Shown here piece by piece: positions 29,932 through 62,740 of a stretch of 64,000 bases of DNA. Within the stretch, counting starts at the first letter, position 1; each line of letters begins with the position of its first letter. Position numbers and translations under genes: made by a program. Source of the DNA: Demequina aestuarii (lineage in GTDB: Bacteria > Actinomycetota > Actinomycetes > Actinomycetales > Demequinaceae); assembly GCF_000975095.1 (NCBI RefSeq), contig NZ_BBRD01000001.1, positions 2,375,467 through 2,439,466 of the forward strand. The letters are read 5' to 3'. Under the pieces are notes generated by a model. It searched no databases. It had not been told where the DNA came from and saw only the letters and a program-made list of their open reading frames with translations.

Positions 29932-30591
29932 ATGAGCTCTCTGACCTCCCCGTCCACGCGCGCGCTGGGGCTGATCGCGATCGTCGGAGCGGTCGTCTGG
30001 ATGGGCACGGTCGCCGCGTTCCACCTCATCCGGCCCGACCTCTCCCCTGGCGACGCCTACATCAGCAACTACGCGCGCGGCGACTGGGCGTGGGTGATGC
30101 AGACCGCATTCCTCGTCAACGGGACGGGTTGGGCGGCGGCGGGCATCGGGCTCCGGCGCACGCTCGGTAGCGCTCCCGGCGCCAAGGCACTGGCCGTGCT
30201 TGCCGCCGTCGCAGCGCTGGGGATGGTGCTCGCCGGCATCTTCCGCGCCGACCCGCTCGGCACCATGTCGCCGTCGCTCGAGGGCCTCGTCCACTCGCGC
30301 ACCGCAGGACTCGCGTTCCTTTGCTTCATCGCGCTCGGCTTCGTGGGGTGGTGGGCCGCGCGGACGGCCGATGCGTGGGCCGGCTGGGCACTGCCCTCTC
30401 TCGCCTTCGGGTTCGTGACACTCACACTATTCGTCACGTTCAACGCATGGCCCGCGGTCGCCGGAAGCGGCTTCGGGTGGTGGCAGCGGCTGCTCGCGGC
30501 CGTCGTGATCCCGGGCGCGCTCGCCGCTATCGGTGGAAGACTGGCCCATCCCGCGCATCGGACGCTCGCCGTGGGCCTCCGCGAGGAGTAG
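29932..30591 (+). CDS. DUF998 membrane protein, first of a tandem pair
   Basis: 219 residues from ATG 29932. Six hydrophobic helices with the DUF998 landmarks FHLIRPDLSPGDAYISNYARG after helix 1 and GIFRADP between helices 3 and 4, and GFGWWQR near the end. Function unknown. The gene 41 bp downstream encodes a clear paralogue, so this is a tandem duplication. Confidence 0.8.
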   Translation: MSSLTSPSTRALGLIAIVGAVVWMGTVAAFHLIRPDLSPGDAYISNYARGDWAWVMQTAFLVNGTGWAAAGIGLRRTLGSAPGAKALAVLAAVAALGMVLAGIFRADPLGTMSPSLEGLVHSRTAGLAFLCFIALGFVGWWAARTADAWAGWALPSLAFGFVTLTLFVTFNAWPAVAGSGFGWWQRLLAAVVIPGALAAIGGRLAHPAHRTLAVGLREE

Positions 30592-30632
30592 CGTCGGAGG
30601 TATCAGGCACGACCTCGTGAGAGGGGGCTGAG

Positions 30633-31325
30633 ATGACCGGCAACGACGCAGGTCCAGGCACAACGAAGACTCCCATCCGCTCCACGCGCGTGCCGTTGTC
30701 CGCATCGGCCCTCGGCCTCGGAGCGATCTACGCCTCCCTCTTCTGGGTGCTCGTGGTGCTGGCATTCCACTGGATCCGTCCCGACCTCGACCCGTGCTGC
30801 AGCGACGTCAGCGCCTACGGCCGCGGCGACTATGAGTGGCTCATGCAGGCGGCATTCGTGGTGTTCGGCTTCGGCTGGATGGCCGCCGGAATCTCGCTGC
30901 GACGGGCCCTGCGCGATACCCGCTCTGCTGCGGTGCTGCGGACCCTGCTCTTCATGGTGGGTTTCGGTCTGCTCGTCGCCGGGATGTGGCGGGCCGACGA
31001 CCTCGGCGCCGCAGGCGACCCCTCCCCGGAAGACGTGTTCCACACGATCGGCAGCCTGGCGGCCTACGGCGGGCTGATCGTCTTCGGGCTGCTCTCCGCG
31101 TGGCTGCTGCGGGGCACCCGGCTGAGCGGGCTCACCGTGATGCACCTGGTGCTCGGGCTCGTCACCCTCGCCTTGCTCCTGACGTTCAGCATCATGGCCG
31201 ATGCTGGCACCGACGGTTTCGGGTGGTGGCAGCGGGCGCTGACCATGGTGGTCATGCCGGGCTGGCTCATCTGGCTGGGCTGGCGCCTGGCGCTGACGGC
31301 GAGGGCCGACGCCAGCAACGCTTGA
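30633..31325 (+). CDS. DUF998 membrane protein, second of the pair
   Basis: 230 residues; GAGAGGGGG lies 5 nt before the ATG. Same topology and landmarks as its neighbour (FHWIRPDLDPCCSDVSAYGRG, GMWRADDLG, GFGWWQRALTMVVMPGWL), with an extra ~25-residue hydrophilic N-terminus and two adjacent Cys in the first external loop that the first copy lacks. Function unknown. It converges on the sigma-linked gene at 31450 across palindromic element A1. Confidence 0.8.
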   Translation: MTGNDAGPGTTKTPIRSTRVPLSASALGLGAIYASLFWVLVVLAFHWIRPDLDPCCSDVSAYGRGDYEWLMQAAFVVFGFGWMAAGISLRRALRDTRSAAVLRTLLFMVGFGLLVAGMWRADDLGAAGDPSPEDVFHTIGSLAAYGGLIVFGLLSAWLLRGTRLSGLTVMHLVLGLVTLALLLTFSIMADAGTDGFGWWQRALTMVVMPGWLIWLGWRLALTARADASNA

Positions 31326-31339
31326 CCCGCCTCGCCCCT

Positions 31340-31433
31340 TCACTGCGAACCACTCTTCTCGCGACACGCCGCGGCCAAGGGCCGATGCGCGGGCCGGGTC
31401 CGGGGTGTCGGGCCCAAGAGCGGTTCGCAGTTG
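31340..31433. repeat. Long imperfect palindrome, copy A1
   Basis: Left arm CACTGCGAACCACTCTT ... CGACACGCC; right arm, read in reverse complement, AACTGCGAACCGCTCTT ... CGACACCCC. The loop region carries GGGCCGATGCGCGGG. It occupies the space between two convergent stops (31325 and 31450), so it could also end transcripts from both sides. Related copies are at 33456 and 35602. Confidence 0.75.
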
Positions 31434-31449
31434 CTGCGGTGAGTGGCGG

Positions 31450-32847
31450 TCAGTCCGCCTCGCCCAGGTAGACCCAGGTCTGGTAGCCGTCACGATCGCC
31501 ACCTGGATCGGCACCCGCCTCGTCGACCGCGCCCCAATCCACGCCGTCGATCACCAGGAACACCGCGCCGTCGACCTCGGGGATCGGCGCGTCGTCGGCA
31601 CAGTCGTCTCCCCGCAGCGGATCTACTCCCCCCTGGCGCAGGATGAACTGCAGGCCCGGGTGCCACTGGAGGTGCGGGTCCGGGATCCCGGCGCTGACGT
31701 CATCCGCCACCAGCCAGGCATGGTGCTCGAGATACCAGGGAGTCTCGCCGCCGGTGAGACTCAGCACCCACTCGTCGCCCCACAGCTCGCCGGTGAGCTC
31801 ATCGTTCCGGAACGGCAGCCTGACCGTGTACTCGGGCGCGTCAGTACTGGGGTGGCCCACGTCCCGCAGGTCGGCCAGCGGCGAGCATCCTGGCTCGGGC
31901 CGCGGCACCACGAACGCCTGATGGGCCGGTTGCGTCTGGCGCAGCTCGGCCGATTCCACGGCGTCCGGCGACTCCCGGTCGATGCTCGGCGACTCGGAGG
32001 AGTTGGCGGGCTCGTTGGGGTCCACGACGACCGTCGCGAGGAGGGTGCTCTCTCCTGTTTCGCTGGTCGACCAGTACTGAGCGATGAGCCGCGTGTCCAT
32101 GGGATCGCCCGGGTCGTTGGACCACGTGTCGAGCGAGTCGTCGCAGTGGCCGATTCGCGGGATGCCGGCTCCCGACTCCCCCATCAGCAGGCCGTCCTCA
32201 TCGCCCCCCGAGCCGTATGCGCTGGACGCCACAACACCCGCGACGGTGTCGTCATCCATCAGCAGCGTGGCGACGCGGTAGGACCGCACCTCGCCACCCC
32301 CGGCGATCCTCCACGAGGGCGAGTCTGGGTCCCAGCCAGTCATAATCCCGTCCGGATTGTCGGGGTCCAGCGGCCTCGGCTCCGCGGTGGGGGTGCCGAG
32401 CGTGTCCCCCAATGTGGTCAGTTCCGCCTCGAGGAACAGCTCGCGATCGAGCGCCCGCGCATCATGCACCGTGAACCCGGGCGTGAGGTCGAGCTCGTCG
32501 CCGCACATCACCGCGCCGGCCCCCCGCAATATCACCTCCGGTTCGCCTTCGCGCACGTCGGCCTCGGACTCGACCGAGTAGCGCCACGGCCCCGCGTTCA
32601 CCTCCGTCTCCGGTCCGGCGGGCTCGGACTCCCATACCCCGGCCAGCGGCAGCACGAGCCATCCGGCCAGACCGATCACCGCGACGCCGAGGGCGCCGAC
32701 CCCGGCCTGAGCCGTCGCCCTCCGCCGCCGACCGCGCGCGATGCCGTCGACGCTGGACGCCACCACCGCATCGGCCGTCAGCCCAGGCGCGACCGCCTCA
32801 CCGTGCCGCCGTGCCGCACTGCGAAGCGCGTCGTGGAAGTCGCTCAT
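31450..32847 (-). CDS. Sigma-linked single-pass membrane protein, locus 1
   Basis: 465 residues. A basic cytoplasmic N-terminus (RSAARRHGEAVAPGLTADAV, GRRRRATAQ), one membrane helix at about 50-70 (GVGALGVAVIGLAGWLVLPL), then a long acidic extracellular part. A block MCGDELDLTPGFTVHDAR is shared with the locus-2 protein, as are later Cys in the order HCDD, GCSP, DDC. The gene overlaps the upstream ECF sigma gene by 4 nt. Position and topology suggest an anti-sigma or sensor role, but no zinc anti-sigma (HxxxCxxC) motif is present. No known domain recognised. Confidence 0.75.
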   Translation of the reverse strand: MSDFHDALRSAARRHGEAVAPGLTADAVVASSVDGIARGRRRRATAQAGVGALGVAVIGLAGWLVLPLAGVWESEPAGPETEVNAGPWRYSVESEADVREGEPEVILRGAGAVMCGDELDLTPGFTVHDARALDRELFLEAELTTLGDTLGTPTAEPRPLDPDNPDGIMTGWDPDSPSWRIAGGGEVRSYRVATLLMDDDTVAGVVASSAYGSGGDEDGLLMGESGAGIPRIGHCDDSLDTWSNDPGDPMDTRLIAQYWSTSETGESTLLATVVVDPNEPANSSESPSIDRESPDAVESAELRQTQPAHQAFVVPRPEPGCSPLADLRDVGHPSTDAPEYTVRLPFRNDELTGELWGDEWVLSLTGGETPWYLEHHAWLVADDVSAGIPDPHLQWHPGLQFILRQGGVDPLRGDDCADDAPIPEVDGAVFLVIDGVDWGAVDEAGADPGGDRDGYQTWVYLGEAD

Positions 32848-33380
32848 CGCTCGCTCCTCTCGACGACAGGCATTCGCTCCGGTTCGTCGGCGCTCACTCC
32901 CAGCACGGGCGCGAGTCGCTGCCGCCCCTCTGCCAGGTACTTCTTGACGGTCCCGTCGCTCAGGCGCATGGCGACCGCGATGTCCGCGACCGTGAGGTCG
33001 TCGTAGAACCGCAGAGCGACGGCGGTGCGCACGCGGGGAGGGAGGCCCGCGAGTGCCCGGCTGATGTCGTCGTGATCCTCGACGTGTTCGGCATGCTCGT
33101 GCGGATCAGGCGTCGCGACCTTGGGGACCAGCCGGCGCCACGTCGCGTCGCGCCGAATGCCGTCAATGTGGAGCGTGCGCATGGTCGCGCGGACGTAGCC
33201 CTCGATGGCGCGATGGTCGTCGAGCCGGCGCCGTTTGACCAGGGTCTTCACCAGCGCCGCCTGCACCAGCTCCTCGGCGCCGTGATGAGAGCCGGTCAGC
33301 ACGTAGCCGTAGGCGGCCAGGCGCGACCCCGCCTCGCGGTACACGTCCGCGACCACCTCGGCGATATCCGGCCTGCTCAT
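32844..33380 (-). CDS. SigE-family ECF RNA polymerase sigma factor, locus 1
   Basis: 178 residues. Region 2 (AAYGYVLTGSHHGAEELVQA, VKTLVKRRR, RTLHIDGIRR) and region 4 (LPPRVRTAVALRFYDDLTVADIAVAM, GTVKKYLAEGRQRL) are complete. TATGGT lies 9 nt before ATG 33380. Overlaps its partner gene by 4 nt (ATGA). ECF factors redirect polymerase on an extracytoplasmic cue; the membrane partner downstream is the obvious candidate for receiving it. Palindromic element A2 lies just upstream. Confidence 0.88.
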   Translation of the reverse strand: MSRPDIAEVVADVYREAGSRLAAYGYVLTGSHHGAEELVQAALVKTLVKRRRLDDHRAIEGYVRATMRTLHIDGIRRDATWRRLVPKVATPDPHEHAEHVEDHDDISRALAGLPPRVRTAVALRFYDDLTVADIAVAMRLSDGTVKKYLAEGRQRLAPVLGVSADEPERMPVVERSER

Positions 33381-33455
33381 GTCCCTCACACCATAGAGAC
33401 GGTTGAGGGGCGCTCGGGGGTGGGGTGCGACTTCTCCCGGTCCGTCCCACCCACT

Positions 33456-33550
33456 TTCACTACGCACCACTTCTCGCGCGACACGCCGCGGCATCGGGCC
33501 GATGCGGGTGCTGGCCCGGGGTGTCGCGCGCCACAGTGGTTCGTAGTGAA
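33456..33550. repeat. Long imperfect palindrome, copy A2
   Basis: Left arm TTCACTACGCACCACTTC ... GCGACACGCC; right arm in reverse complement TTCACTACGAACCACTG ... GCGACACCCC; the loop has GGGCCGATGCGGG. It lies between the stop of the locus-2 partner (33602) and the promoter region of the locus-1 sigma gene. Compensating changes between arms (TACG against TGCG in the other copies) suggest selection for pairing or copying as a unit. Confidence 0.75.
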
Positions 33551-33601
33551 GAGTGAAGGAGGTGAAAGCGGCCGATGCACGGGTCCCGTCGGCCGGCGGA
33601 G

Positions 33602-35002
33602 TCACCCCTCGTGGAGCTCGGGGATCGACGGCACGCCGTCCACGACCGTGATGGACGTCAGGTCGTACACGTCCCCCTTCTCCGGCACCACGAGACTGGC
33701 GGAGTACTCGCCAGGTTCGACGACACCGGGGCTGGAGCAGTCCCACACCGGGCTCAGCTCGACGAACCACCCCGGCTCATCGTGCGGGAGGTCGTCGCGC
33801 TCGGACCAGCGCGCGTCGAACACCCACATCCCATCGACGCCGCGCAACACGAGTCGCATGTCGCCGACCTCGACCATCCGAGAGATGGGACCGGTACCAT
33901 CCTCACTTCCGTTGACCGGAATCGGGTACCCGCCGACGAGCGCGTCATCTCCGTAGCCATACAGGCGACCGGTCTCGATCGTGCTGGGCACCGGAATGCT
34001 GCCGACGACGTCTCCGGCGTCACCCGTGCCGGTCACGAAGGCCTGATCGTCCGAGAGCGCGGCGCACTCGAGCCCGCCGTTCCACTCCCGCACCTCGATG
34101 ACGGACGCGAGCGCGTCGTCACCCCACGTGTTCCCGAGCAAGCCGGAGTCATCGACCTCAGGCTCACCCAGGCCGGAGTACTCGATCTCGCCGGCGCTGA
34201 ACACGATGGTCGCGAGCGGCTCTGGGGACGTCACGTCGCTGGTCCACAGGCGCGTCACCCACACCGGCTCGTATGTTCCGTCTCCGAACTCGGCCGAGCG
34301 GTCCTCGTCCCCGCACTGACCCGGCGACGGCGTCCACTCTGGCAGCCAGTCGTCACCGCCAGGTTCGACGGCGAGCGACCCGCCCCCGCCACTGCCACCC
34401 CCGGCGACACCTACGCCAACGACCACGCCATCGCGCACGAGAAGCGGCACCTCCACCTGCGCCACGGACTGGATGCCGTCGAACTCTGATGCGAACCGGA
34501 AGTAATGCGTTTCGAACCCGAGGTTGATGCCGGTGGGAGCCGCGTGGTGAGACCCGTCATCGTGAAGCGCCCACGACGACGCGCTCGCGACCCATGAGTC
34601 ATCGAGAACGCTCGCGTCGTGGACTGTGACACCTTCTTCCAGCTCGAACGGGTCGCCACACATCAATTCGGGGTAGGCCAGCGTGTCCTCGTTGTCGAAC
34701 GGACCACCGGGCAGTGGCTCGACCGGGGCGCTATCAGAGACCCGGTAGGTCGTCGCGTCGCCACCGACTCCCGCCGGGTCCGCTACCGTGCCGTTGCCGA
34801 GCCCCGGCAGCACGCTCCACGCGCCCACCGCCACCAGAGCGATCCCGGCCACGGCACCCACGCCGCCACCGACCGCGCGGCGCCGACGGCCCCGGCGCAC
34901 CCGCGCGCCCAACGCCGCACGCACGTCGCTCGAACTCAAGCGCCGTGCAGACTCGTCGACCGCATCGGCCCCGTGCCTTCCCAACTCGTCGTGCAGATTC
35001 AT
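33602..35002 (-). CDS. Sigma-linked single-pass membrane protein, locus 2
   Basis: 466 residues with the same design as the locus-1 protein: N-terminal LGRHGADAVDESARRLSSSD and a basic GRRRRA segment, one helix (GVGAVAGIALVAVGAWSVLP), and an extracellular region starting with LMCGDPFELEEGVTVHDAS. Four widely spaced Cys (MCGD, GQCGD, LECAA, WDCSS) suggest two disulfides. Gly/Ser-rich loop (GGGSGGGGS) at about residue 210. Overlaps the sigma gene by 4 nt. Role inferred only from context. Confidence 0.75.
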   Translation of the reverse strand: MNLHDELGRHGADAVDESARRLSSSDVRAALGARVRRGRRRRAVGGGVGAVAGIALVAVGAWSVLPGLGNGTVADPAGVGGDATTYRVSDSAPVEPLPGGPFDNEDTLAYPELMCGDPFELEEGVTVHDASVLDDSWVASASSWALHDDGSHHAAPTGINLGFETHYFRFASEFDGIQSVAQVEVPLLVRDGVVVGVGVAGGGSGGGGSLAVEPGGDDWLPEWTPSPGQCGDEDRSAEFGDGTYEPVWVTRLWTSDVTSPEPLATIVFSAGEIEYSGLGEPEVDDSGLLGNTWGDDALASVIEVREWNGGLECAALSDDQAFVTGTGDAGDVVGSIPVPSTIETGRLYGYGDDALVGGYPIPVNGSEDGTGPISRMVEVGDMRLVLRGVDGMWVFDARWSERDDLPHDEPGWFVELSPVWDCSSPGVVEPGEYSASLVVPEKGDVYDLTSITVVDGVPSIPELHEG

Positions 35003-35538
35003 GACCGTCCCTCCGTCTCCACCACTGCGACGCGTTCGACATCGAAGGTCGCGTCATCACCTACTTCGACCGCGAGCCGGTCGAGGGCTTCCGAGAGATA
35101 CCGCTTGACCGTCCCGGTCGCGAGACCCATCTCGTGCGCCACGTCAACGACCGTGAGGTCGTCGTAGAAGCGCAGCACCACCGCGGTGCGTTGGCGCGGA
35201 CTGAGCGCGCCGAGCGCCCTGCCCACCGCATCGGCCGCATGAATGCGGTCGGTGGCGTCGGGCACCTCGTCGCGGACAGCCTGACCGGGCATGAGTCGCC
35301 GCCACACCTTGTCGCGGCGCAGACCGTCGAGGTGCAGGGTGCGCATCGCGGCGCGCACGTAGCCCTCGGCAGCAGCGGCATTGGGGATGCGGCGGCGACG
35401 CACGAAGACCTTCACGATCGCGTCTTGCACCAGGTCCTCGCCAGCGTGCTGCGAACCCGTCAGCAGGTAGCCGTAGGCGGCGAGCCGCCTCGAAGCGCGC
35501 TCGAGCATCTCGCTCAGCAACTCGTCATCCGCAGTCAC
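34999..35538 (-). CDS. SigE-family ECF RNA polymerase sigma factor, locus 2
   Basis: 179 residues from GTG 35538, chosen because GAGAGGGG lies 6 nt upstream; an ATG at 35559 is possible. Region 2: AAYGYLLTGSQHAGEDLVQDA, RTLHLDGLRR; region 4: LSPRQRTAVVLRFYDDLTVVDVA and TGTVKRYLSEALDRL. Closely related to the locus-1 factor. Palindrome A3 lies 64 bp upstream. Confidence 0.88.
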   Translation of the reverse strand: MTADDELLSEMLERASRRLAAYGYLLTGSQHAGEDLVQDAIVKVFVRRRRIPNAAAAEGYVRAAMRTLHLDGLRRDKVWRRLMPGQAVRDEVPDATDRIHAADAVGRALGALSPRQRTAVVLRFYDDLTVVDVAHEMGLATGTVKRYLSEALDRLAVEVGDDATFDVERVAVVETEGRS

Positions 35539-35601
35539 GGGTGCCCCTCTCGTCGGCATAAGAACGGCCGATGCGCGCGAAGGGTTGTGGTCGCCCCGCC
35601 G

Positions 35602-35696
35602 TCAACTGCGAACCACTTTCCCAGCGACACGCCGGGGCATCCGGCCGATGCGCGGGTCACCGTGGGCGTGTCTGCGAAAGATGGGTTCGGAGTTGA
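35602..35696. repeat. Long imperfect palindrome, copy A3
   Basis: Left arm TCAACTGCGAACCACTTT ... GCGACACGCC; right arm in reverse complement TCAACTCCGAACCCATCTTT ... GACACGCC; the loop has CCGGCCGATGCGCGGG. It fills the space between the ABC permease stop (35725) and the locus-2 sigma gene. Confidence 0.75.
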
Positions 35697-35724
35697 TGAG
35701 GGGGGAGACAGCCGGGCCGCCTCA

Positions 35725-37287
35725 TCAGCCGGCGAGGATGAGCTGGGTCACGCGCAACTGGTGCGCGTCGAGCCGACGCGCGGCCCACGCCACGACCGGC
35801 CACGACGCGGCGATGCTCGCCGCGAGCGCCCCGAGCGCGATGACGAGCCCGAGCCCGAGCCCCCCAACGGCCCAGATCACCCCTGCCGCGATGCCGATGG
35901 TGGTGAACACCAGCAGGATGGCACCCAAGTGCCAGAACGCCGCGACGGTGCGGCCATCGGATTTCTTGTCGGCGTCGTACGGTGCGATCACCGACACCGC
36001 AGCGCCCACGGCCGTCGCCCACAGCGCGGCCGCCGCCCCGCAGATCAAGGCGCCCACCACGTCGACCTCAAGGAACCCCAGGGCGGCCTCAACCGCGACG
36101 AAGACCACCAGCGCCGCGAGCGCGATGGTCGCGACCACGACCGCTTTGCCCACCAGCACGGCCCGCATCGGCGCGCCTGAGATCACCGAGAACTCCGCGC
36201 CCGCACCGTCGTAGTTCAGCAGACCGGTGCTCAGGGAGACCGCGACCAAGCCCCCGAGCATGGCCCCAGCAAGAGCGAAGCTCGCGTCGACTCCCAAAGA
36301 ATGGGCGAGAAAGCCTCCGATGCCCAAGGAGGTCAGCGTCTGTTGGGCTGCACGCGGCTTACGAAAGAAGAGGTAGCGCGCGTACTGGGCGGCCGCCGCT
36401 CCGCCGGGGCTCTTCGGCGACAGCCGCAGCAGGCCACCCGTCAGGGCGAGGCGAGTGCCGGCGCGCGGAGACCGCCTGCGTCGAGCCGGAGACTGCAATC
36501 CGCCGCGCTCCTTGCGGGCCAGCACCCATACCCACAGCGCGATCGCCGCGATCACCCAGGCGAGCGCGTAGGCGGCGCGACCCAGCGCGACCACGGCATC
36601 TCCCGCATCGAGGTCGAGGGCCATCTGCAACGATGCCCCCGGCGGCGTCCAGGCCAGCAGCACGGCGACCACACTATCGGAGACGCCGTTGACGAGCGCC
36701 TCAGGATTGCGGGTGAGGATCTGGATGCCGACGTAGAAGCCGACGCCGAGCAAGCCGGACGCCATGAGAGCGACGTCCCGGCCGCGGCGGGAGGCGGTCG
36801 CGCGGCTGAGCATCGCCTGCAACGCCCGGGACCAGGCGACACACATGACCGTGAACACCACCGCGCCCACGAGGGCGAGGGCACGTGCGCCCCAGCCGAT
36901 GCCGGGCGCGAACACTGCCCCGAGGGCCGCAAGAAGCGTGCCCGTCGCGGTGGGCGCCACCAACCCGCCCAACAGCAGTCCGGAGACCTTCTCGCGCGCC
37001 GTCAGGGGGTACATCTCGAGCCGGGCGGGATCGACGGTCTGGTCCTGCAGGGCGGGAGTGATCAGCGGCATCAGCAGCCAGCCCAGGAAGATCACCGTCA
37101 GCACCGCCAGCGCGGCAGCGCCGTCGCCGTCCAGCCACAGCAGGAAGGCGACGAGCGCGCCCGTCGCCACGCCCGCACCCACAGCGAGCAGCCACATGCC
37201 GATGATGATCACGCCACGGGTGGACGACCACGACCCACGGCCCGAGCGCTGGATCGCGAGGCGCAGCCTCAGGAGGACGACAGCCAC
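35725..37287 (-). CDS. ABC transporter permease, ABC-2-like
   Basis: 520 residues from GTG 37287 (GGGGA 8 nt upstream), overlapping the ATPase gene by 19 nt. About twelve membrane helices in two groups separated by a basic loop (RKERGGLQSPARRRRSPR, about residues 265-290). No solute-binding motif; together with the single ATPase this looks like an exporter or a membrane-protein complex of unknown substrate. C-terminal tail ARRLDAHQLRVTQLILAG is cytoplasmic. Confidence 0.8.
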   Translation of the reverse strand: MAVVLLRLRLAIQRSGRGSWSSTRGVIIIGMWLLAVGAGVATGALVAFLLWLDGDGAAALAVLTVIFLGWLLMPLITPALQDQTVDPARLEMYPLTAREKVSGLLLGGLVAPTATGTLLAALGAVFAPGIGWGARALALVGAVVFTVMCVAWSRALQAMLSRATASRRGRDVALMASGLLGVGFYVGIQILTRNPEALVNGVSDSVVAVLLAWTPPGASLQMALDLDAGDAVVALGRAAYALAWVIAAIALWVWVLARKERGGLQSPARRRRSPRAGTRLALTGGLLRLSPKSPGGAAAAQYARYLFFRKPRAAQQTLTSLGIGGFLAHSLGVDASFALAGAMLGGLVAVSLSTGLLNYDGAGAEFSVISGAPMRAVLVGKAVVVATIALAALVVFVAVEAALGFLEVDVVGALICGAAAALWATAVGAAVSVIAPYDADKKSDGRTVAAFWHLGAILLVFTTIGIAAGVIWAVGGLGLGLVIALGALAASIAASWPVVAWAARRLDAHQLRVTQLILAG

Positions 37288-38036
37288 GACAGTTCCCCGT
37301 CGTCGATCGCCCGGCGTCCCACGAGATCGACGAACGCCTGCTGCAGAGATGGAGCGCTGCCGCGCACCTCCGGCACCGTCCCCTCCACGCGGACCGCTCC
37401 GCCGGCGATCACCACCACCCGATCGCACAGCCGCTCCACCACGTCCATCACGTGGCTGGAGAACACGACGGTGCCGCCCCCCGCACGGTAGCGATGCAGC
37501 ATCTCCTCCATCACCTGGGTGTTCACGGGATCGAGTGACCCGAACGGCTCGTCGAGGATGAGCACCCGGGGGCTGTGCAGGAGCGCCACCGCGAGGCCGA
37601 TGCGCTTGGTCATGCCCAACGAGTAGTCAGCGATCATGCGGTTCTCGTCGTCGGTCATCGCGAGGATCCGCAGCAGCTCGTCCGCACGGCGAGTGATCTC
37701 GGCAGGGTCCATGCGACGCAGCAGGCCCGCGTACTCCAGCATCTCGCGCCCCGACAGCCGGTCGAACAGGGCAGGGTTGTCTGCCACGAATCCCAGTCGC
37801 CCCTTGGCTTCGCGCGGATCCGGCCACACCGCCACGCCGTCGACCTCGACCTCGCCCGCATCGGGCTGCAGTGCGCCGATCATCATGCGGAGCGCCGTGG
37901 TCTTGCCCGCGCCGTTGGGACCCGCGATCCCGTAGAAGGCCCCGCGCGGGATGTCCAGGTCGAGCCCGGCCACGGCGCGCGTGTGTCCGAACGCCTTGTG
38001 CAGTCCACGCACCCGCACAGCAGACGCGTCAAGCAT
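37269..38036 (-). CDS. ABC transporter ATP-binding protein
   Basis: 255 residues. Walker A GPNGAGKTT, Q-loop region RLGFVADNPALFDRLSG, an atypical signature YSLGMTKR in place of LSGGQ, Walker B RVLILDEPFGSLDP and H-loop VVFSSHVMDV. The SxGMxxR signature is usual for ABC-2-type exporters. Operon with the permease; no further partner gene follows. Confidence 0.92.
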   Translation of the reverse strand: MLDASAVRVRGLHKAFGHTRAVAGLDLDIPRGAFYGIAGPNGAGKTTALRMMIGALQPDAGEVEVDGVAVWPDPREAKGRLGFVADNPALFDRLSGREMLEYAGLLRRMDPAEITRRADELLRILAMTDDENRMIADYSLGMTKRIGLAVALLHSPRVLILDEPFGSLDPVNTQVMEEMLHRYRAGGGTVVFSSHVMDVVERLCDRVVVIAGGAVRVEGTVPEVRGSAPSLQQAFVDLVGRRAIDDGELSWLSSS

Positions 38037-61189: not shown

Positions 61190-62740
61190 GTGGACGAGTT
61201 CAGCGAGCGAGTACGAGCCGCGGCCGATGCGCGGTCACGGCAATGGCCCGATGCGCGGGCGGGCCGCGAACGGCGCCGCTCGATCGGGCGGGCTCGCGCC
61301 CTGCGGGTAGGCGGTTCGGCCGCCATCGCTGCGGTCGTCATCACCGGCATCGGGGCCGCGGGTGTGGGATTCACCGGAGTGGGCTCCGCGCCCGAGCCGA
61401 GCCCCAGCGCCTCGCCCGACCTCACCCTCGGTCAGGGCGACACCGCCTACGCCACGCTGCCCTTTCCCGACGAGCACGAGATGGACTCCCACATGCGCCA
61501 GCTCGCGGCCTACTGCGGCGGGCCGGTCCCCGAGACGCGCGCTGAATCGGAGGACTTCTCCGTCGCGTACGACATCCCGGAACGCCTCGACATCGATCAG
61601 CAGACAGGCGTCTCTGCCGGCCCTGCGCAGTCCTCGGCTCAACTCACGTTCTCGGGGAGCTCCCCGCTCCCCGCATTCGTGTCCGGCCCCTCAGCGCTGT
61701 TCGTCGAGGACGGGACCGTCGTGGGCGCGGCACCGGACTATCAGGAACCCATCGTGAGGACGTTCCAACCAGGGGGGACCGCGACCTATCGCTGGGAGTC
61801 GATCGGGGGCGCCGCCTCCTGCGACACCGAGAGCGAGCCCGGGTTCGGGTTCGGCACCCTGGAGCCAGGCGACTACGAGATGGTGCTGGTCACCCAGGTG
61901 TACAACGACGAGGCCGCCGCGGCGACGCAGAGCCTGCGCATGGACGGCTACACGCTGCCGGTCATGAGCGAGCTCCCGGCTTTCAGGGAAGGCGCCTACG
62001 AGTGCGACAGCGAGGACCGCTGGGGTGGCATCACGCCGCTCACGTGTGATCCGCATGCACTTCCCGGGGTGGAGATCGATGACGAGGCGGGCACCGTGAC
62101 GGTGCCGTACGAGGCGTCGTTCTACACGGAGGACGTGTCGCTCCTGTATGTCTCGCCACCGATAGCCGTCACCGTCACCCCGAACGAGAACGGCGCCGAG
62201 GACTTCTTACTCTCCCCGCCCGTGCCCGGGTTCGAGCGGGGCACTGTCCCCGCCTGTGGCGATCAGTTCGGCAGCATCGGCACTGGCTCGATCCAAGGCC
62301 CGTGGGACTCGATGGCGGGGTCCCTCGCTGGCACGGAGGTGGGCGACGCGCTCGATCCGGAACTGTGGCGCAGGGGCTCGGGGTGGCTCGAAGCAGAGGT
62401 CACCGTGCCTGTGGACCCGCGCGTCTGGGTCCTGGCCCAGCGTGACATCGCGTTCGACGACGGCGATGGCGATGCCTCGACCGAGAGCCTGTACTCCGCG
62501 CAGGAGGTCGTGGGCTGGTTCGACACCGACTCCGGATCGGACGCCACCACGTTGAAGATCGTGCGCTACGACGGACCAGAGACATGGCCGCTCTCCGTCA
62601 CGGACGTGCAGTGGTGCGAGGGCTTCGACAGTGCTGACACCACGGATGACAACCACCTGGGGATGGTCGCCTCGCCGTCCACCGTGACTCTGGACGACGG
62701 CACCCGCGAAGAACTCGACGCGCTGGTGTTCTCGCCGTGA
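61190..62740 (+). CDS. Sigma-linked single-pass membrane protein, locus 4, first copy
   Basis: 516 residues from GTG 61190. Basic N-terminus (RRRSIGRARALR), one helix (GGSAAIAAVVITGIGAAGVG), a Pro/Ser linker (APEPSPSASPD) and an extracellular part starting LAAYCGGPVPE; Cys continue as SCDTE, YECDSED, LTCDPH, ACGDQF, WCEGF. LEPGDYEMVLVTQVYND resembles the PAGDYEV strand of the locus-3 protein. A tandem paralogue follows at 62788. Function inferred only from linkage to sigma genes. Confidence 0.75.
   Translation: MDEFSERVRAAADARSRQWPDARAGRERRRSIGRARALRVGGSAAIAAVVITGIGAAGVGFTGVGSAPEPSPSASPDLTLGQGDTAYATLPFPDEHEMDSHMRQLAAYCGGPVPETRAESEDFSVAYDIPERLDIDQQTGVSAGPAQSSAQLTFSGSSPLPAFVSGPSALFVEDGTVVGAAPDYQEPIVRTFQPGGTATYRWESIGGAASCDTESEPGFGFGTLEPGDYEMVLVTQVYNDEAAAATQSLRMDGYTLPVMSELPAFREGAYECDSEDRWGGITPLTCDPHALPGVEIDDEAGTVTVPYEASFYTEDVSLLYVSPPIAVTVTPNENGAEDFLLSPPVPGFERGTVPACGDQFGSIGTGSIQGPWDSMAGSLAGTEVGDALDPELWRRGSGWLEAEVTVPVDPRVWVLAQRDIAFDDGDGDASTESLYSAQEVVGWFDTDSGSDATTLKIVRYDGPETWPLSVTDVQWCEGFDSADTTDDNHLGMVASPSTVTLDDGTREELDALVFSP

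Follow-up and report, generated by a model that had tools for sequence, protein, structure and literature searches.

The window, that is the whole stretch of 64,000 nucleotides of Demequina aestuarii DNA that was analysed, contains two operons each made of an ECF-type sigma factor gene and a partner gene, and three imperfect palindromes of about 95 bp, named A1 to A3, that lie in the intergenic gaps around them. The palindromes and their neighbours are listed below in window coordinates, R1 and R2 being covariance models of the repeat, G000 this genome and C6 the contig.

31335..31438 (no strand assigned): A1, palindromic element of about 97 bp in the gap between convergent genes, a DUF998 gene (30633-31325, plus strand) and sigma-partner gene 1 (31450-32847, minus strand); R1/R2 hit at G000:C6:2406801-2406904
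31362..31371 (plus strand): left inner arm of A1, CGACACGCCG, with the right inner arm CGGGGTGTCG at 31401-31410
33452..33554 (no strand assigned): A2, palindromic element between the stop of partner gene 2 (33602) and the start of sigma gene 1 (~33380); R2 hit at G000:C6:2408918-2409020
35598..35700 (no strand assigned): A3, palindromic element between sigma gene 2 (34999-35559) and the next minus-strand gene, which ends at 35725; R2 hit at G000:C6:2411064-2411166
32844..33380 (minus strand): ECF-type sigma factor gene 1, a neighbour and not part of the element (Pfam Sigma70_r4_2 8e-15, Sigma70_r2 2e-6)
34999..35559 (minus strand): ECF-type sigma factor gene 2, a neighbour and not part of the element (Pfam Sigma70_r4 5e-13)
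31450..32847 (minus strand): sigma-partner gene 1, a neighbour without Pfam family
33602..35002 (minus strand): sigma-partner gene 2, a neighbour without Pfam family

A first-pass annotation of the sequence had placed the three palindromes at 31340-31433, 33456-33550 and 35602-35696, with co-varying arms and a shared loop, at the edges of the two sigma operons. This observation is confirmed by direct reading of the sequence, although several of its details had to be corrected. The folding energies are 4.5-7 SD beyond those of dinucleotide shuffles on both strands, GCGACACGCC occurs on the plus strand of the window only at the three A elements, and outside them the window has no full-length relative. 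The loop sequence GGCCGATGCG, on the other hand, is not specific to the element. It is a heavily over-represented word of the genome, found 38 times in the window (for example at 31380, 33497, 35566 and 35643) against 1.4 expected and 101 times in 224 kb, 29 of them intergenic. It is independent of the palindromes and could be an uptake-, Chi- or terminator-type word. The arms do agree (TACG/CGTA in A2), but the right arm of A3 is CGGAGT, a mismatch.

In order to determine if the palindromes are restricted to this locus, DNA and covariance model searches were performed. A DNA search found four further full copies, and a covariance model built from seven copies found 17 full-length copies in the genome, so that the result which the first-pass annotation had named as refuting its reading, only three copies genome-wide, was not obtained. 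In the other families of the order this model found none, apart from one odd match in G038. A wider model built from 56 copies found the family in 37 of 41 genomes of the genus, with up to about 48 places each (these genomes are designated below by G numbers). A pattern scan of named genomes gave mostly hits in Demequina species, with scattered hits elsewhere, and other palindromes with CGACACGCCG arms, possibly related repeats, were seen in Glaciihabitans (loci L122 and L154), Bifidobacterium cuniculi (L116 and L164) and Mycobacterium sp. D16R12 (L103, L130 and L143). No Rfam family matched positions 30000-37000 up to E=1.

The association with sigma operons is local, and the same family lies beside hpt, ftsH, tRNA-Gln and many unrelated genes. 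A1-A3 share the loop GGCCGATGCG and the same operon-edge placement, and the three-copy arrangement is also present in G034, so local duplication among these three is plausible. As a full explanation, however, duplication together with the two sigma operons is refuted by the fourteen other copies at unrelated genes and by the genus-wide family. In an ungapped comparison A2 and A3 are no more alike (0.64) than A1 is to the copy at 2360122 (0.68). Ten of ten sites of this genome in a 190-kb region have an element at the same place in G034, sometimes of another dialect, the term used here for the species-specific version of the arm sequence. Ten of the 17 copies cluster in these 190 kb, but the complete genomes G001, G003 and G017 show no consistent pattern of origin or terminus bias. 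An ABC transporter gene pair (window 35725-38036) lies between A3 and topA here but is absent in G034, where the equivalent element directly follows topA.

The anatomy of the element was examined in 93 non-redundant copies anchored on the inner arm. The outer arm is variable but mirrored, a linker of 9-10 bp is unpaired, and the inner arm (CGACACGCC, CGACACGCCG in this alignment) is nearly invariant, with conservation of about 97-100% at most positions. The centre (~29 bp) is neither conserved nor paired, yet the inner-to-inner length is 47-49. Named loci in this set were selected on a 27-29 bp centre, but unrestricted pairs in 877 kb, a check free of that selection in part, fall at 29-31 with only two exceptions, and the spacing between outer GAACC and GGTTC is mostly 69-70 in five genomes, whose sets were found with a covariance model that favours the usual length. 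In G003 a second, 87-bp subfamily (L220-L239) with a different outer arm, GAACAGTTCTGACCG, and the same inner arm coexists with the 97-bp one, sometimes side by side (47447/47641; 178955/179103). It is exactly 10 bp shorter in 7 of 7 copies, and a change of one helical turn points to a double-stranded DNA-protein complex.

To test if the agreement of the arms reflects an RNA helix, right arms were swapped among copies of the same genome. Complementarity was equal after swapping in the homogeneous genomes G001, G003 and G017 (p=0.67, 0.16 and 0.99 respectively), and only the mixed-dialect genomes G000 and G034 showed an excess (p=0.01 and 0.002). The symmetry is thus that of paired half-sites written in species dialects. 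Despite the stable predicted folds, a structured RNA family is very unlikely, considering the absence of an Rfam match, the high model scores on both strands, the lack of within-genome compensation in homogeneous genomes and the unconserved, unpaired centre of fixed length.

The genomic context of the copies was then classified. Of 97 copies, 42 are convergent (43%), 47 tandem and 8 divergent, whereas background intergenic gaps are 15, 54 and 31 percent, and 89 of the 97 lie at a gene 3' end, typically 7-20 bp after the stop codon. The complete copy sets of five genomes give 31 convergent, 48 tandem and 15 divergent, with 79 of 94 classified copies at a 3' end. One divergent copy lies 3' of tRNA-Gln, but others, such as that in locus L045, lie between true divergent genes. 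This placement and the strong folding would be consistent with transcription terminators, acting both ways between convergent genes. However, flanks are C-rich before and G-rich after the element in every context and no U-tract follows the hairpin. The centre is unpaired, the arms do not compensate within homogeneous genomes, and neither the conserved inner sequence nor the fixed spacing is needed for a terminator, which would also not explain the pairing with a nuclease gene described below. Termination as the main role is consequently unlikely, although insulating terminators cannot be excluded as a side effect, because most copies (~80-92%) lie just 3' of genes.

Evidence of mobility was also sought. 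Two copies in D. gelatinilytica are identical over exactly 100 bp with unrelated flanks, which defines the unit. No target-site duplication was found, as there was no excess of direct repeats at the element ends in a search of all boundary positions, and no clean empty site was found between G000 and G034, homologous gaps holding other sequence or other palindromes.

In all five genomes with complete sets, two or more elements lie between hpt and ftsH, and in G000, G034, G003, G001 and G017 this gap encodes a protein of about 300 aa. Most Demequina species encode there a protein of about 280-300 aa. In this genome the gene, for a protein of 297 aa, is at C6:2370036-2370926 (locus L280), about 4.5 kb left of the window, and is flanked by two copies of the element. 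Pfam finds AbiEi_4, a winged-helix domain, at the N-terminus and MTES_1575/DUF559 at the C-terminus, MTES_1575 being described as a Vsr-type REase (PMC3710099). The AlphaFold model (AF2, pLDDT 93) matches by Foldseek the AbiEi antitoxin 6y8q and the catalytic domain of the EDxHD homing endonuclease I-Bth0305I (3r3p, TMt 0.77). E180, D207, D219, H224 and D233 are invariant in 40 homologues, so that the predicted nuclease retains an intact EDxHD-type set of E, D, H and D residues (E180, D207, H224, D233), as judged from fold and conservation rather than from a residue-by-residue match to I-Bth0305I. Among the loci retrieved, no AbiEi-DUF559 gene was found beside dispersed copies outside the hpt-ftsH locus.

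R2 found two elements flanking this gene in about 18 genomes. Reading of the flanks of 32 hpt-ftsH-type loci, in some of which hpt or ftsH was not recovered, showed a flanking pair in nearly all of them, the exceptions being loci cut by contig ends and G017, whose score is borderline. Genomes without the 97-bp family at this locus have their own matched pairs, for example GGCCRCTCAGCAACCA in G020 and CGATCGTTTTGACACAA in G010, two genomes where the gene had at first seemed to lack palindromes. As a quantitative control, the best shared segment between upstream and downstream flanks was scored, and it exceeded the 95 percent level of 277 ordinary genes in 29 of 30 hpt-type loci, in 22 of 28 paralogues elsewhere in Demequina and in 7 of 11 genes of other families. 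Among the control genes, the one at window 61364-62740 had by far the highest score (104) and so probably lies between long repeats. The inner motif GACACGCC is present at 24 of 32 hpt-type loci against 35 of 279 controls, and appears at least twice at three loci of other families. The AbiEi-DUF559 genes of L342, L343, L347, L348, L349 and L350, from other actinobacterial families, are flanked by matched palindromes, some with this motif.

It was therefore of interest to establish whether the dialect follows the gene. A parsimony count of dialect changes on the gene and species trees was too weak to separate them (7 against 8 changes), and a partial Mantel-type test was used instead, with dialects assigned by eye. 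Given the identity of hpt plus ftsH, protein identity still tracks the dialect (partial r 0.50 for the winged helix, 0.69 for the middle and 0.53 for the nuclease; p=0.0005). G019 and G011, for instance, are 98.7 percent identical in hpt plus ftsH but only 33 percent in the protein, with different dialects, which makes the hpt-ftsH cassette an extreme hypervariable locus, evolving extremely fast beside almost invariant neighbours. Linkage alone could carry gene and flanks together when the cassette is swapped, and could thus explain the flanking pair, but it cannot explain why a second dialect (ACCGCTCAACACAC), which flanks the gene in G014 and G023, is also dispersed at several other places in those two genomes. 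In G004, G006, G011, G014, G022, G023, G025 and G030, on the other hand, the 97-bp copies do not match the dialect now at the hpt locus, and must be relics or belong to another gene.

Since AbiEi antitoxins bind pairs of inverted repeats in their own promoter, with spacers of 3 or 13 bp (PMC7319586), and the model matches AbiEi, the protein could alternatively be a repressor that is autoregulated through the flanking palindromes and regulates other genes through the dispersed ones. This operator reading is unlikely, as copies avoid promoters and favour 3' ends, one of the two palindromes at the gene lies at or in its 3' end, and a nuclease domain with a conserved active site is not needed for a repressor.

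Taken together, the explanation held to be more likely than not is that A1-A3 are dispersed, non-autonomous copies of a DNA element of about 97 bp belonging to a two-part selfish system, the other part being the gene for the AbiEi-type winged-helix protein fused to an EDxHD/Vsr-type, homing-endonuclease-like nuclease domain. In this view, a protein dimer would bind the two symmetric arms at a fixed, helically phased spacing, the outer arm being the dialect and the inner arm CGACACGCC the conserved contact, and cleavage at palindromes or target gaps would then let repair copy the element to new intergenic places and replace older dialects. The family, its anatomy and fixed spacing, the 3'-end bias, the paired flanking of the nuclease gene, the dialect following the gene, the absence of RAYT and the intact residue set are established by the present analysis, whereas binding, nuclease activity and copying by repair are inferred. 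Any effect on transcription of the sigma operons would be secondary. The first-pass interpretation is thus partly supported: its mobile REP/MITE-like option is supported by the genus-wide dispersed family with a discrete unit length, and its RNA structure option is not.

A broader reading, considered about as likely as not, is that actinobacteria carry a widespread, undescribed class of selfish palindromic repeats driven by AbiEi-EDxHD nucleases rather than HUH transposases, in which gene and flanking palindromes form an exchangeable cassette at fixed loci and the dispersed palindromes are its non-autonomous populations, re-founded each time the cassette is swapped. REPs and REPINs are among the oldest puzzles of bacterial intergenic DNA, and no partner protein other than the HUH-type RAYT is known to us. 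A second, unrelated nuclease family paired with palindromic repeats in the same layout would show that this way of life evolved more than once, and would give a role to the AbiEi-DUF559 proteins, which Pfam describes as antitoxin-like and of unknown function. It predicts dialect-specific binding, and new copies or replacement only with an active nuclease. No paper joining DUF559 with inverted repeats, or AbiEi with DUF559, was found among the open-licence literature, most subscription journals and preprints being outside the search, and novelty is therefore provisional.

Among known systems, the REPIN/RAYT arrangement of Pseudomonas (REP doublets with TnpA-REP; PMC3116915, PMC2817692) likewise has an inverted doublet of conserved arms around a less conserved spacer, about 100 bp long, intergenic, in many copies and with species dialects, and a cognate nuclease gene at a fixed place flanked by the repeat. 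Here, however, the flanked gene encodes the AbiEi winged helix-turn-helix with an EDxHD/Vsr nuclease, the arm is not itself a REP-type hairpin, and no Y1/HUH protein (PF01797) was found in any of the 41 Demequina genomes, while the control gave a signal in E. coli and four others. With respect to MITEs of DDE transposons, a gene flanked by two copies exists but encodes an EDxHD-type nuclease and not a transposase. ERIC and NEMIS-type miniature repeats are also imperfect palindromes of about 100 bp and near-constant length at gene ends, but are of unrelated sequence and taxon and are not known to be paired with an AbiEi-EDxHD gene. The AbiEi antitoxin of type IV TA systems (PMC7319586) shares the N-terminal winged helix, the two-domain layout and the binding of inverted repeats, with spacers differing by 10 bp, whereas in the present case a C-terminal nuclease is added, no AbiEii toxin gene lies in the hpt-ftsH gap, and palindromes are found on both sides of the gene and dispersed. 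Finally, EDxHD homing endonucleases share the predicted nuclease fold and the conserved acidic/His set, and dimeric action on a very long target (~60 bp) is described for I-Bth0305I (PMC3943268). In Demequina the domain is instead fused to an AbiEi-like DNA-binding part, chromosomal and flanked by paired palindromes, with dispersed target-like copies that lack the gene.
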